Source: Robiginitomaculum sp. (GTDB lineage: Bacteria; Pseudomonadota; Alphaproteobacteria; Caulobacterales; Maricaulaceae). Taken from it: a stretch of DNA of 64,000 bases. Of this stretch, positions 35,791 to 39,914 are shown piece after piece. Numbering within the stretch: the stretch's first letter is position 1; each line of letters starts with the position of its first letter. Both the position numbers and the translations under genes were made by a program. Under the pieces are notes generated by a model that made no database searches, was not told the origin of the DNA, and saw nothing but the letters and a program-made list of their open reading frames with translations. Location: contig JAJFFS010000016.1 of NCBI GenBank assembly GCA_021776515.1, forward strand, positions 124,001-188,000, written 5' to 3'.

Positions 35791-36366
35791 TTATGCTGTG
35801 GCGGGTGTTTTTGTTGGCATGACAGCTCGCTTCGTGTGAACGATAAAGAGCGGTGCGATCCAAAATACTGAAAGACCTAGGGCCAGAAATAAAAACCCAT
35901 AGCCCAGACGATGTTGGTCGCTGACAAGATAGGCGTTGCAGATGCGCACCGGCGCGTGGATATAAAGAAAAGCCAGTACGCCCAGCATGGAAACGACTTC
36001 GGCCTTGATAATGCCGCGTAATAATGGGTGCGCGCGTGCCCAGCCAATAGCAAGAGGTGCGCCCACGCCAAACGGCAGGGTAATAAATTTGGCCAATTCC
36101 ATTGTCGGTGAAGACAACACCGCATCAATTGACCGGGGCAGCATCCAGAAAATGATTGTAAAAAAAGCAACGAGCAGGGTGGCAACACCGCCCCGGTTCC
36201 ACTCACTCCGGCGCCCGGTGCCATTCGGGGTAATAAGCACACCGCTCCATGCCAACAATGGTAATTGCACCAGTATGTGGCTTACCGGATCGGCTTCCAG
36301 GGGGATACGCAAGGCAAAACAAAACCCAACAACCAAAATGGCAACAAGGTAAGAGGGGGGCTTCAT
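35791..36366 (-). CDS. Small integral membrane protein of the oxidase/NO-reductase operon (orf1-like)
   Basis: 191 residues with about five or six hydrophobic helices (e.g. YLVAILVVGFCFALRIP at the N-terminus, VFWIAPLFIVH near the end) and a charged C-terminal tail. No catalytic motif is visible. It is last in the operon subunit II - subunit I - SenC - this gene, overlapping the SCO gene by 4 nt. In nitrifiers the sNOR locus norS-norY-senC-orf1 has the same order with a small membrane protein last, so this is probably the orf1 equivalent. Function, perhaps assembly, is unproven. Confidence 0.65.
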   Translation of the reverse strand: MKPPSYLVAILVVGFCFALRIPLEADPVSHILVQLPLLAWSGVLITPNGTGRRSEWNRGGVATLLVAFFTIIFWMLPRSIDAVLSSPTMELAKFITLPFGVGAPLAIGWARAHPLLRGIIKAEVVSMLGVLAFLYIHAPVRICNAYLVSDQHRLGYGFLFLALGLSVFWIAPLFIVHTKRAVMPTKTPATA

Positions 36367-36974
36367 GATAGCGTGCGCTTTAGCGCCTCAAGGGCGCCAT
36401 CAAAGTCATCGGTATCAACGATAGAGCTTAACTGCCCGGTCGGGCTGATGACATGAATGGCTGTGTTGTGTTCATAACCGCCAAATGTGTCCGGATCACC
36501 TTTGATGACGACAACGCCAAAGGCTTTTAGCAAAGCAGGAAGGTCGTTCACCGTCGGGCGGGCAATGGTCCAAACCTCGCCATCCGCATGGTGCAGCTCG
36601 CCATAACGCGCCAGATGCGAAACATCATCAACATCAGGGTCGAAACTGACCGAGAAAAGGCGAACCCTGTCCCCCAGCCCCTCGGCAATTACCAGATCGC
36701 GCAGGCGGGCCATATCCCCCCCGGCACTTTGGCAAATCGTTGGGCAGGTGGTGTAGATGAATTCAACCATAACGGCCTTGCCAGGTGCGCCTGGCAAGGG
36801 TTCTGCGGACCCTTTCATGGTTTCCAGCATGAAAGATGATACCATTGGCGCTTCACGCTGAACGGCAAGGCGTCTGGCCCCTTCGGCGGTGAGCGCCTGA
36901 AGGCCGTCGGTAGCCTTGAAAAAGAGCACTGAACCAGCGATGAGAACCGCCAGAGATGCCAAAAATGCCTTCAC
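36363..36974 (-). CDS. SCO1/SenC family copper chaperone
   Basis: 203 residues: an N-terminal membrane anchor (KAFLASLAVLIAGSVLFF) and then a thioredoxin-fold domain facing the periplasm. The copper-binding CxxxC is TTCPTICQSAGG, and the third ligand His lies in HNTAIHVISP. SCO proteins load copper into the CuA site of subunit II, which fits the complete CuA motif in the first gene of this operon. GTG 36974 was chosen because it lies 4 nt after the subunit I stop with GAGA 7 nt upstream and places the anchor at the N-terminus; an ATG at 37013 would overlap subunit I by 35 nt. Confidence 0.9.
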   Translation of the reverse strand: MKAFLASLAVLIAGSVLFFKATDGLQALTAEGARRLAVQREAPMVSSFMLETMKGSAEPLPGAPGKAVMVEFIYTTCPTICQSAGGDMARLRDLVIAEGLGDRVRLFSVSFDPDVDDVSHLARYGELHHADGEVWTIARPTVNDLPALLKAFGVVVIKGDPDTFGGYEHNTAIHVISPTGQLSSIVDTDDFDGALEALKRTLS

Positions 36975-36978
36975 GTTT

Positions 36979-38421
36979 CTATCTCGTACGTTTCTTTCGC
37001 AATCCTTGGGCATAGGAAACAACAAACAATAGTGCGCCAAGGATTACCAATAAGGCAAAGCCCGTGGCCAGACGGTCCTGAAGGAACCATTCAGGCACAT
37101 GCACCGCCCAGCGCCGTGGTACCGATAGCGCCCCGGAAATGAGGAACATCAGGGTAAACCCGACCCCACCCAACAGATAGACAGCGAAACCAGCAAGGTC
37201 GAGGATATTCAGCCCCTTTTCACGGGGGTCTTTTACCAGCCAGGCCATAAAACCAAAAGTTATGGCCACCTCGCCCAATAGCAAGTAGATATGGAAGTGA
37301 CCGGGTACCCATTGGGTGTTGTGCATGACTTTGTTTACAGCAATCATGCCGTCAATAATCGCCGGAGCTGAACCTATAGACCATCCGGCAACGCCCAGTA
37401 CAAGCAGCGCCGAAGCAAGGTCCCAGTACATTACTCTTGACTGGCGCAGATAGACCAGAAGTGAAAATGCGGTCACAGCCAGAAGCGGGATACCAGACAG
37501 GTAAGAGACAACTTGCCCCATAATGAGTGCCCAGGCGGGCATGGCCACATCTTGCAGCAAATGGTGCGGGTAAACCGCCAGAACAAAGAGAAATACCATC
37601 GTCCAGGCTATGGCAAAGGGCCGCGTCGTTTTCCAGGGCTTGCCAAGATATTCCGGTAAAATCTCATAAACGGCAATGACAGCCATATAAATGCTGGCGT
37701 TGATAAAAACGTGCCCAAAGAAGAAAATCATATTCTTGGCCAGCAAGGCATTAACAGCAAAATCAGGTATCATCAGATTGACAAGACTGCTGACCAACAC
37801 CGTTGCCCCGACAACTATGCCCATGACATTAAAAAGAGTAGAGGCCATGGCCGCAACCACAGTGGGTGGCGGTGCATTTTCTGCTCGTCCGTTGCCAAAA
37901 GCCAGAGGCCAGGCCAGTGCACCGCCTATGCTGCCATAGGCAGCAATTAATTTACGGGCAATTTCAAGGTGAAGAAGCAGAAACGCGACACCGATAAATA
38001 TATAACCAAGAAGAAAGGTGGCGGCGGCCTCATTGCTCCAAAACCCGCCAGACATTGCCGGTAGCGGGAATAGAAATGTCCAGGCACCTGCATAGCCGCC
38101 AATGAAAATGCTGCCTAGAATCAATACAACACCGGTGAGAAACAACCCAAGAAAGGTCCAGAAAACCCCGGCGAGCAAGGGAACATAGCGGCCGGTGAAA
38201 TACCATAATATGGATATTCCCGTCAGGCCGGCAGTGCCCACCATACCCGCACCATGTGCGGTCATGATTTGATAAAACAGGGCCTGATCAATTTCAATCA
38301 TTCCCCCTTGCGCCGCGCGCATAATGAAGCCGAAGACCATCATAAGAAGTAAAACCACACCGGCTAAAAGCATTGTGAATTTCACGGCAGCTTCCTGTGG
38401 TTGATGTTTTGCTTTTATCAT
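36979..38421 (-). CDS. Heme-copper oxidase-superfamily subunit I, probable sNOR-type nitric oxide reductase (NorY-like)
   Basis: 480 residues, about 12 membrane helices. All metal ligands are present: low-spin heme His56 (MTAHGAGMVG) and His377, high-spin heme His375 (WVPGHFHIYL), and CuB ligands His237 (FFFGHVFIN) and His286-His287 (YPHHLLQD). In A- and B-type oxygen reductases the motif is GHPEVY, with the Tyr cross-linked to His; here it is GHVFIN, so that position is Asn241. Loss of this Tyr is a hallmark of NO reductases in the superfamily. It overlaps subunit II by 4 nt and is followed by senC. Automated annotation may call it cytochrome c oxidase; the gene order and NsrR neighbour favour NO reduction. 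Confidence 0.8.
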   Translation of the reverse strand: MIKAKHQPQEAAVKFTMLLAGVVLLLMMVFGFIMRAAQGGMIEIDQALFYQIMTAHGAGMVGTAGLTGISILWYFTGRYVPLLAGVFWTFLGLFLTGVVLILGSIFIGGYAGAWTFLFPLPAMSGGFWSNEAAATFLLGYIFIGVAFLLLHLEIARKLIAAYGSIGGALAWPLAFGNGRAENAPPPTVVAAMASTLFNVMGIVVGATVLVSSLVNLMIPDFAVNALLAKNMIFFFGHVFINASIYMAVIAVYEILPEYLGKPWKTTRPFAIAWTMVFLFVLAVYPHHLLQDVAMPAWALIMGQVVSYLSGIPLLAVTAFSLLVYLRQSRVMYWDLASALLVLGVAGWSIGSAPAIIDGMIAVNKVMHNTQWVPGHFHIYLLLGEVAITFGFMAWLVKDPREKGLNILDLAGFAVYLLGGVGFTLMFLISGALSVPRRWAVHVPEWFLQDRLATGFALLVILGALLFVVSYAQGLRKKRTR

Positions 38422-38936
38422 TGTTCTGCCCCTGATTGTGCGACAACCTTAAACTCTGAAATCATGTCATGATGAGCAGCGCCGCAATATTCCAGGCAAA
38501 TAACCTTATAGGTTCCTGGTCGGTCAAAAGTATATTTTACCTGATTAACATACCCTGGCATGACCTGGGTCTGGACAAGTAATCGGCCATCAGGATCGGT
38601 CACCCCGAACCCGTGTGTTACGTCCGCAGCATGGGTGTTAAAGATAATTGGATGCCCTATGGGCACCTCTTCGGTATCGATGTCCCACGCCCATTGAAGA
38701 CCAGTTACGTTAACCGTGGTGCTTGGCCCCGTGACAGCAACTGAATGTGGCCAGGACTTAAGTGACACAATGGTTACAACAGCACCTACTGCCAGTAATA
38801 CCAGAATGAAACGGGATCGGGTTCGCTCTGCATTTTTCATTGTTTGTCCCGCTCCTGAAGCCCAGATCGCGGCAATAAAAAAATAGGCAATGAGTGCCAT
38901 CAGAAAAAGGGCAATAGCCAGTACAGTCATTTGCAT
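38418..38936 (-). CDS. Cytochrome c oxidase subunit II-like CuA protein (NorS-like)
   Basis: 172 residues from ATG 38936. Two N-terminal membrane helices (TVLAIALFLMALIAYFFIAA and the segment around FILVLLAVGAVVTIVSL) precede a periplasmic cupredoxin domain. The CuA centre is complete: His in DVTHGFG (near 108) and CLEYCGAAHHDM, giving Cys-x-Glu-x-Cys, His and Met. It should take electrons from cytochrome c and pass them to the subunit I hemes. A GTG at 38951 and an ATG at 38930 are other possible starts; none has a strong ribosome site. First gene of the operon, 22 nt below the palindromic NsrR-like operator. Confidence 0.85.
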   Translation of the reverse strand: MQMTVLAIALFLMALIAYFFIAAIWASGAGQTMKNAERTRSRFILVLLAVGAVVTIVSLKSWPHSVAVTGPSTTVNVTGLQWAWDIDTEEVPIGHPIIFNTHAADVTHGFGVTDPDGRLLVQTQVMPGYVNQVKYTFDRPGTYKVICLEYCGAAHHDMISEFKVVAQSGAEQ

Positions 38937-38958
38937 AGTGGTTTCTTTCACATTTTAT

Positions 38959-38979
38959 ATACGCATATTGTATGCTTAT
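38959..38979. promoter_or_regulatory. NsrR-type palindromic operator between norS-like and nsrR-like genes
   Basis: Inverted repeat ATACGCATAT - T - GTATGCTTAT (8 of 10 arm positions pair), with core GCATAT-T-GTATGC. NsrR sites in other proteobacteria are built on GCATnT-N-AnATGC half-sites one base apart, which this resembles closely. It lies in the 89-bp divergent gap, so it could control both the operon and the regulator itself. Assignment is by motif and context only. Confidence 0.6.
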
Positions 38980-39025
38980 TATTTTTAATATTGCCCTGTC
39001 AACGATAATTGCCCACAATCGGCAC

Positions 39026-39469
39026 ATGCAAATTACGGCTTTTTCCGACTACGCTCTTAGAGTGTTGATGTATCTTACCGTGACCAGTGACAGGCTGGTG
39101 ACCAGTCGTGAAATATCTAACTCTTATAATCTTTCATTCAATCATGTTGCCAAGGTAACACAATTCCTTGCCCGGGAAGGTTATGTCAAAGCGGTAAGAG
39201 GCCGTGGGGGTGGTTTGCGCCTCGCCAAAAGGCCTGACGAAATTTCCATAGGCAGCGTGCTGCGTCTGGCCGAGGCCGGATCAGAACTGGTGGAATGTAT
39301 GCGCGGAGGGACGGTGCAGTGCGCGCTGGCCCCGGTGTGCGGTCTTTCACCAATTTTTGCGGAAGCCAATGAAGCTTTTTTCAAAACTCTGGATCAACGC
39401 ACATTGGCGGATGCCTTGCCCAGAAAAAAAGAAGTGCAGCAAATACTGGGATTGATCAAGCCTGGCTGA
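39026..39469 (+). CDS. nsrR: Rrf2-family nitric-oxide-sensing repressor NsrR
   Basis: 147 residues. The N-terminal winged helix starts MQITAFSDYALRVLMYL and includes REISNSYNLSFNHVAKVTQF and VRGRGGGLRLAK, the Rrf2/NsrR signature. Three Cys for an Fe-S cluster lie in VECMRGGTVQCALAPVCGL (spacing C-x7-C-x5-C), with the C-proximal part matching NsrR rather than IscR. NsrR loses its cluster on contact with NO and releases its targets. It is divergent from the NO-reductase-like operon with a palindrome between them. ATG 39026 was chosen because this is where family similarity begins. Confidence 0.88.
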   Translation: MQITAFSDYALRVLMYLTVTSDRLVTSREISNSYNLSFNHVAKVTQFLAREGYVKAVRGRGGGLRLAKRPDEISIGSVLRLAEAGSELVECMRGGTVQCALAPVCGLSPIFAEANEAFFKTLDQRTLADALPRKKEVQQILGLIKPG

Positions 39470-39640: not shown

Positions 39641-39710
39641 GATGACGTTATTAAGCAATCAATATTCACCATTGTGCAGTGCAATGGTGAGGCGAAAACG
39701 GAGTTTGGTT

Positions 39711-39857
39711 GTGAATTATCGCACCAGCAATTTGGAGCACAAAGCCAGCAAGGCCCTCAGCCTTGCGGTGCCCAATGTCGTGCTCAATTCCGTGACCGTC
39801 CTTCTAGTCAGTGTGATTATTGTAACCGTTCTATTAGGAACGGGGCACCCAGGATAA
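39711..39857 (+). CDS. Branched-chain amino acid-rich leader peptide of the ilv-leu attenuator
   Basis: 48-residue leader. Starts at GTG 39711 with GGAG 7 nt upstream (39700-39703). Between residues 23 and 42, 15 of 20 residues are Val (8), Leu (5) or Ile (2); VTVLLVSVIIVTVLL illustrates this. Shortage of any of the three charged tRNAs would stall ribosomes over the first strand of the downstream hairpins. The peptide itself needs no function. Its stop lies 24 nt before the terminator stem, and the first structural gene, ilvD, starts 87 nt after the stop. Confidence 0.8.
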   Translation: MNYRTSNLEHKASKALSLAVPNVVLNSVTVLLVSVIIVTVLLGTGHPG

Positions 39858-39888
39858 CGCAAAATAAAACGCGTTCACTGAAGCCCCG
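39826..39888 (+). promoter_or_regulatory. Pause and antiterminator hairpins of the ilv-leu attenuator
   Basis: Strand 1 CCGTTC (39826-39831, inside the last Val-Leu codons) pairs with strand 2 GAACGG (39838-39843). Alternatively CGGGGC (39841-39846) pairs with GCCCCG (39883-39888), which is the left side of the terminator. A small AACGC/GCGTT stem (39856-39875) would stack inside the antiterminator loop. The pairings are mutually exclusive, as in classical amino acid attenuators. Confidence 0.7.
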
Positions 39889-39914
39889 CTCTTAAAAAAG
39901 AAGCGGGGTTTTTT
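39884..39914 (+). terminator. Attenuator terminator upstream of ilvD
   Basis: Stem CCCCGCT (39884-39890) / AGCGGGG (39902-39908) followed immediately by six T (39909-39914). It lies between the leader peptide and ilvD and points into the operon. It should terminate when ribosomes finish the leader peptide freely. Confidence 0.85.

Follow-up and report, generated by a model that had tools for sequence, protein, structure and literature searches.

A probable sNOR-type nitric oxide reductase operon with a conserved operator in an alphaproteobacterium

We analysed a 64,000-nucleotide stretch of DNA from Robiginitomaculum sp. (contig JAJFFS010000016.1), hereafter the window, whose minus strand carries at 35791–38936 an overlapping set of genes for a subunit II, a heme-copper subunit I, an SCO/SenC protein and a membrane protein (orf1), with the gene of an Rrf2-family regulator diverging from it. 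As judged from its sequences, this operon is a further member of the sNOR (NorSY) family, which is known but under-studied, readily passes for cytochrome oxidase in annotation and has a substrate that is still in dispute. We consider it quite probable that the encoded enzyme reduces nitric oxide (NO) to nitrous oxide and serves NO removal. The sNOR family itself is already known; what is new here is a conserved operator beside it.

A first-pass annotation of the same DNA, made without database searches, had read the gene order as CuA subunit II, heme-copper subunit I, SCO/SenC and small membrane protein, all overlapping or nearly so, and this is borne out by the coordinates of the open reading frames (ORFs) and by Pfam matches (Table 1). 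The genes for subunits II and I overlap by 4 bp, as do those for SCO and orf1. Subunit II has an N-terminal membrane helix followed by a CuA cupredoxin domain, in which the CuA motifs DVTH and CLEYCGAAHHDM are present; among 84 related ORFs, the window's included, C.E.C...H..M occurs in 82 (missing in our loci L085 and L102) and DV.H in 81. All 80 related ORFs have the CxxxC of SenC, taken as a loose pattern. With the NCBIfam cytochrome oxidase models, the window proteins stay far under cut-off (CtaD: 37 of 671 bits). The regulator ORF is listed from 38972, with Met 39026 as the start according to family models.

Table 1 Features of the sNOR-like locus, in window coordinates.
Feature	Coordinates	Strand	Basis and remarks
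NorS-like subunit II	38418..38936	-	COX2 Pfam E 9e-9; better start ATG 38936, ORF extends to GTG 38951
NorY-like heme-copper subunit I, 480 aa	36979..38421	-	COX1 Pfam E 3e-40
SCO1/SenC copper chaperone with CxxxC	36363..37013 or 37040 (start uncertain)	-	PF02630 (SCO1-SenC) E 4e-13
orf1, small membrane protein	35791..36366	-	Conserved partner, 32-row alignment
Rrf2-family regulator, NsrR/RirA-like, three Cys	39026..39469	+	PF02082 E 2e-33
Palindromic operator AATAAGCATACAATATGCGTATA (minus strand), core GYAT-N5-ATRC, 23 bp	38958..38980	.	Motif matrix and published NsrR core

Aligned with Thermus ba3 oxidase over the second half of the protein, GHVFIN of the window subunit I falls on GHPIVY, which places H237 at the CuB histidine and N241 at the tyrosine position; H286, H287, H375, H377 and H56 are also present, so that the heme and CuB histidines are all kept. 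The roles of these positions are assigned from general knowledge of heme-copper oxidases. The alignment agrees with the first-pass claim that every heme and CuB histidine is retained while GHVFIN puts Asn in the place of the cross-linked Tyr: where an A- or B-type oxygen reductase has this Tyr, on the helix of the CuB histidine, the window protein has N241. Relatives were gathered without reference to this residue, by scanning for the patterns Y[PWF]HHL[LMY]QD and [ASV][VI]N[KN]VMHN, and the 90 aligned rows (the window, 7 loci, 80 pattern-scan loci and 2 from ammonia-monooxygenase (AMO) genomes; 87 distinct sequences) have Asn at the position in 89 cases, the remaining row, L111, starting past that place at a contig end. 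In the alignment with Thermus ba3, the residues Y237, Y244 and S309 of the ba3 K-channel, a proton channel, are replaced by N241, V248 and L313, and Y248 and T312 are kept as Y252 and T317.

A tree of heme-copper subunit I proteins, the check that the first-pass annotation had proposed, unites the 25 sNOR-like rows included, the window among them, in one group with support 100/100 (47 rows in all), and both AMO-genome rows fall inside it. The window NorY belongs to a five-row subgroup with L041, L044, L048 and L051, and is 77% identical to L044. A quick tree of 63 rows agrees, with a Shimodaira–Hasegawa-like approximate likelihood-ratio test (SH-aLRT) value of 99 for the sNOR group, which a long row, L178, adjoins at 86. 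The window protein lies outside the sampled A-type, ba3, cbb3, bNOR, eNOR and cNOR rows; the placement within an oxygen-reductase clade that would have spoken against the first-pass reading is not seen, and joining the protein to A-type oxidases is rejected by the approximately unbiased (AU) test (p 5e-8). In the tree, sNOR stands beside the A-type at 87/77, on long branches, and a constraint that keeps it together with ba3, bNOR and eNOR is not rejected (p 0.24); passages of PMC11388526 and PMC6967387 class sNOR as B-family or B-type.

The outgroups in these trees were taken from whole genomes and assigned to classes from the letters at their active sites (GHPEVY or similar, A-type; GHP.VYFW or GHALVYFW, ba3; Gln, eNOR; GHTLVN, one bNOR; VEG.WE, cNOR; GHNAVGF, cbb3), the class names being motif-based. 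Out of 57 outgroup proteins extracted, two of them fragments, 27 entered the 63-row and 22 the 47-row tree, where they were joined by 36 and 25 sNOR-like rows, respectively, out of the 90; L118, L129, L161, L166, L178 and L183 were omitted from the smaller tree, mostly for long branches. Nitrifier sNOR was sought through AMO genomes: there were matches in 12 of 399, and of these the 4 scoring under 300 bits were dropped from further search, the other eight all exceeding 379 bits. An Asn-type protein was found in two of the eight (L170, L171), each time in the order NorS, NorY, SenC, orf1, which upholds the likeness to the nitrifier norS-norY-senC-orf1 operon that had been claimed for the window.

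Ruegeria pomeroyi, whose copy of subunit I is 63% identical to that of the window, was formerly called Silicibacter pomeroyi. Table A4 of PMC8756737 gives N as the sNOR active-site residue, with no proton channel, for betaproteobacteria, Silicibacter, Deinococcus and Geobacillus; the table gives N also for CuANOR. We assign the window operon to sNOR because of the Asn, the clade shared with the AMO-genome rows, the Silicibacter entry in the published table and the R. pomeroyi copy.

The first-pass annotation had also described a divergent, NsrR-type regulator. A divergent Rrf2 gene is indeed there, but the protein does not single out the NsrR type: it scores 106.1 bits with the NCBIfam NsrR model (cut-off 182) and 107.5 with RirA (cut-off 193), and we name it NsrR/RirA-like only, because the two scores are alike and both under cut-off. 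Among eight regulators scanned from related loci, NsrR scored higher in five (L038, L059, L062, L071, L104) and RirA in three (L041, L045, L083). The cysteine spacing of the window protein, C-x7-C-x5-C, recurs in 42 of 55 related ORFs and matches that of RirA. The other Rrf2 protein over cut-off in the genome is IscR-like.

The DNA between the divergent genes is more telling. Among the 39 loci whose Rrf2 gene is divergent and lies no more than 500 bases away, inverted repeats of the form 11-1-11 were conspicuous, and 38 of these loci (L104 fails) have an operator site that scored better than all 200 shuffles with a leave-one-out matrix; the 38 loci are related and do not represent as many independent events. 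The site in the window scored 16.4 and the best shuffle 9.8, the matrix having been seeded with one repeat after the repeats were seen and the shuffles being of single bases. The consensus, AATANGYATTTNAAATRCNTATT, has the core GYAT-N5-ATRC in common with the NsrR motif gATGyAT-N5-ATrCATc given in PMC1274295. As reported in that 2005 survey, NsrR orthologues were found in no alphaproteobacteria except one strain. Literature searches returned no report of an NsrR/Rrf2–sNOR circuit in alphaproteobacteria, which is not proof of absence, and the passages concerned in PMC6264515, PMC11707229 and PMC10359470 do not describe one. Searched with up to two mismatches, a limit chosen to admit the site of this operon, the operator pattern occurs at one place in the genome, at this operon (reversed control, 0). 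A conserved operator of NsrR type beside sNOR in many alphaproteobacteria constitutes independent evidence for an NO role, and it is the operator that favours reading the regulator as an NO sensor, the protein itself giving no proof of this.

These data also bear on the alternative that the regulator is a RirA-like iron sensor and that the operon answers iron or Fe–S status, not NO. We rate this as unlikely: the marginally higher RirA score, the three of eight related regulators that share this preference and the cysteine spacing of RirA type are set against five of eight related regulators scoring higher as NsrR, an operator core common with the published NsrR motif, and a single target site in the genome, unlike what is expected of a global iron regulator.

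A distinctly unlikely alternative is that the whole sNOR family is a high-affinity, NO-tolerant oxygen reductase, for which NO reduction would be no more than a side activity. For Nitrosomonas europaea this has been argued from the heme-copper centre and from the induction of its sNOR genes under oxygen limitation (passages of PMC6967387), and a CuA subunit II would fit it. So would the predicted fold of subunit I (predicted local distance difference test, pLDDT, 88.6), which matches cytochrome oxidases and is nearest to A-type oxidases among the matches listed (best Z 37.9; Thermus ba3 Z 32.6); the absence of NOR structures from the 50 fold matches listed carries no evidential weight. The alternative sits poorly with an Asn in place of the cross-linked Tyr in every row that covers the position, with the linked operator and its NsrR core, and with an organism that already has two oxygen reductases: PF00115 finds three proteins in the genome, namely the window NorY and, as read from their active-site letters, an aa3 and a cbb3 oxidase. 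This reading of the other two also excludes a cNOR or qNOR elsewhere in the genome. An ordinary A- or B-type cytochrome c oxidase that takes its catalytic Tyr from another helix, as in cbb3, is highly improbable. In its favour are the tyrosines Y245, Y252, Y284, Y307 and Y379, each conserved in all or nearly all of the aligned rows, and the oxidase label of the R. pomeroyi copy; against it are the tree, the AU test and the Asn, on which A-type or ba3 identity is rejected, and the position of Y245, which in the alignment to Thermus ba3 is 8 residues beyond the CuB histidine instead of 4. The name in the R. pomeroyi record, ‘cbb3-type cytochrome c oxidase subunit I’, is the kind of label that the first-pass annotation had predicted from routine annotation.

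Several further points weigh against assigning NO reduction to the window operon. Neither nirK nor nirS, which would make NO, was found in the genome; the regulator, as described above, scores as RirA as well as NsrR and has the cysteine spacing of RirA; and there is no formate/nitrite-transporter (FNT) gene near the operon, compared with 50 of 80 relatives. Passages of PMC11388526 count four biochemically characterized NOR families, with sNOR not among them but proposed (KEGG annotation coxA), its NO reductase role not being biochemically shown, and those of PMC6967387 argue that in N. europaea the enzyme acts as a high-affinity oxygen reductase, and mention indirect evidence that the sNOR of Nitrococcus mobilis reduces NO. 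Nor does NsrR generally accompany sNOR: a table in PMC4940428 covering five ammonia oxidizers has it in N. europaea only, as NE0926, away from norSY. In favour of the NO reading, a passage of PMC3772326 places NsrR Noc2967 near SenC-NorY-NorS (Noc2969–2971) in Nitrosococcus oceani.

Models for NirK and NirS gave no match in the genome, which favours NO detoxification over denitrification. The likely role would be removal of NO from outside or other sources, using cytochrome c electrons. The donor to NorS would probably be a periplasmic cytochrome c, with CuA as the entry point, and NorY would pass the electrons via the low-spin heme to the high-spin heme/CuB site, with Asn in place of the catalytic Tyr. 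Copper would be delivered by SCO/SenC and perhaps also by orf1. The regulator is proposed to be an Fe–S repressor that acts at a single palindrome to shut off both the operon and its own gene, repression being relieved when NO destroys the cluster.

By a mechanical rule, norS, senC and orf1 occur in order in 62 of the 80 scan loci; among the 18 others are loci at contig ends, loci with long read-through frames and six (L077, L116–L120) in which neither SenC nor orf1 was found. As only 61 of the 80 loci have 3 kb on both sides, counts of locus content are lower bounds: an FNT gene in at least 50 of 80, an Rrf2 gene in at least 50 (36 divergent just upstream), DUF2189 in at least 20 and truncated hemoglobin in at least 17. 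The FNT gene often follows orf1 (L038, L044, L060 and others, as well as L180 from an AMO genome), genes for truncated hemoglobin and a DUF2189 membrane protein recur near sNOR (L038, L060, L074 and others), and cbb3 oxidase genes are also close by in L038 and L039. NorY is split over two frames in L039 (8938–10409, Parasedimentitalea marina) and in L112 (7890–9316, one Rhizobiaceae metagenome-assembled genome (MAG)). The deep-branching loci L116–L120 and L040 (Thermomicrobium, SAR324 and Myxococcota MAGs) have an Asn-type subunit I, and no SenC or orf1 was found in them.

Close copies are scarce: there was none in 60 relatives of the source genome (best E 5e-6), there were four in 384 other genomes of the class at 1e-15, and those of R. 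pomeroyi and P. marina are on plasmids. The GC content of the norS–regulator part, 0.47–0.49 against about 0.55 around it, gives weak support for transfer. The neighbours on the two sides of the operon are acyl-CoA dehydrogenase genes and ilvD, none of the neighbours being a nitrogen-oxide gene. Five of 17 genus mates have the second acyl-CoA dehydrogenase (E 1e-100); four of these keep both dehydrogenase genes, with no operon gene or ilvD in the 10-kb stretches, and the fifth is at a contig end. Insertion at a conserved site was considered and set aside, an exact empty site not being demonstrated among the genus mates. Gene transfer likely lies behind the patchy distribution of sNOR. Tentatively, and with some doubt about the picture as a whole, alphaproteobacterial sNOR might be a sporadic, at times plasmid-borne and self-regulated NO-defence cassette found also in non-denitrifiers, made up of the enzyme, SenC and a CtaG-like orf1 for copper assembly, a local Rrf2 NO sensor and a single operator.

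For orf1, the window protein has no Pfam match at 0.001, and neither DUF1404 nor PF09678 (CtaG) matches it at E up to 10. In the same search, DUF1404 was reached by 10 of 32 orf1 members, at best with 6e-5, under Pfam's cut-off. Aligned with hhalign, the orf1 profile matches CtaG with 30% probability and E 5.5e-4, and three control profiles reach 0.1–0.2%. CtaG is a copper factor for caa3 oxidase. The sNOR-like pair of Thermomicrobium is followed, two genes on, by a true CtaG gene (PF09678, E 5e-51). Literature passages on sNOR gave no family assignment for orf1, which is possibly a very distant CtaG/DUF1404-like copper-assembly factor; we offer this as a lead only.

Outside the operon, upstream of ilvD, an ORF at 39684–39857 (+) ends in a Val/Leu/Ile-rich run, LSLAVPNVVLNSVTVLLVSVIIVTVLL, and after it, at 39884–39914 (+), comes a hairpin that is GC-rich and has six T. 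Together they look like a branched-chain amino acid leader peptide with an attenuator; this candidate has no Rfam match, and the Rfam search returned nothing at E 1. A promoter scan was uninformative (5 sites vs 2.2 expected).

Among known systems, the sNOR of ammonia oxidizers (norSY-senC-orf1, NE0683-86 in N. europaea; PMC4940428) resembles the window operon in gene order, CuA subunit II, the Asn at the Tyr position and clade, while the window operon differs in lying in an alphaproteobacterium, with no nirK or nirS found, a divergent Rrf2 gene and no adjoining FNT gene. Bacillus bNOR (CuANOR) likewise has Asn at the Tyr position, as in GHTLVN of L172 (bNOR by motif), but L172 groups with ba3 oxidases, apart from sNOR. 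With the NsrR regulon of beta- and gammaproteobacteria, the window has an Rrf2 regulator and the palindrome core GYAT-N5-ATRC in common, whereas the bases flanking the core differ. Ruegeria and Leisingera would offer simple laboratory systems in which to settle whether NO or O2 is the substrate of sNOR. The R. pomeroyi megaplasmid locus (SPO_RS20765-20740) is like the window locus in subunit I, gene order and divergent Rrf2 gene, its operator being a perfect 11-1-11 palindrome, and unlike it in having an FNT gene next to the operon and cbb3, truncated hemoglobin and DUF2189 genes close by.

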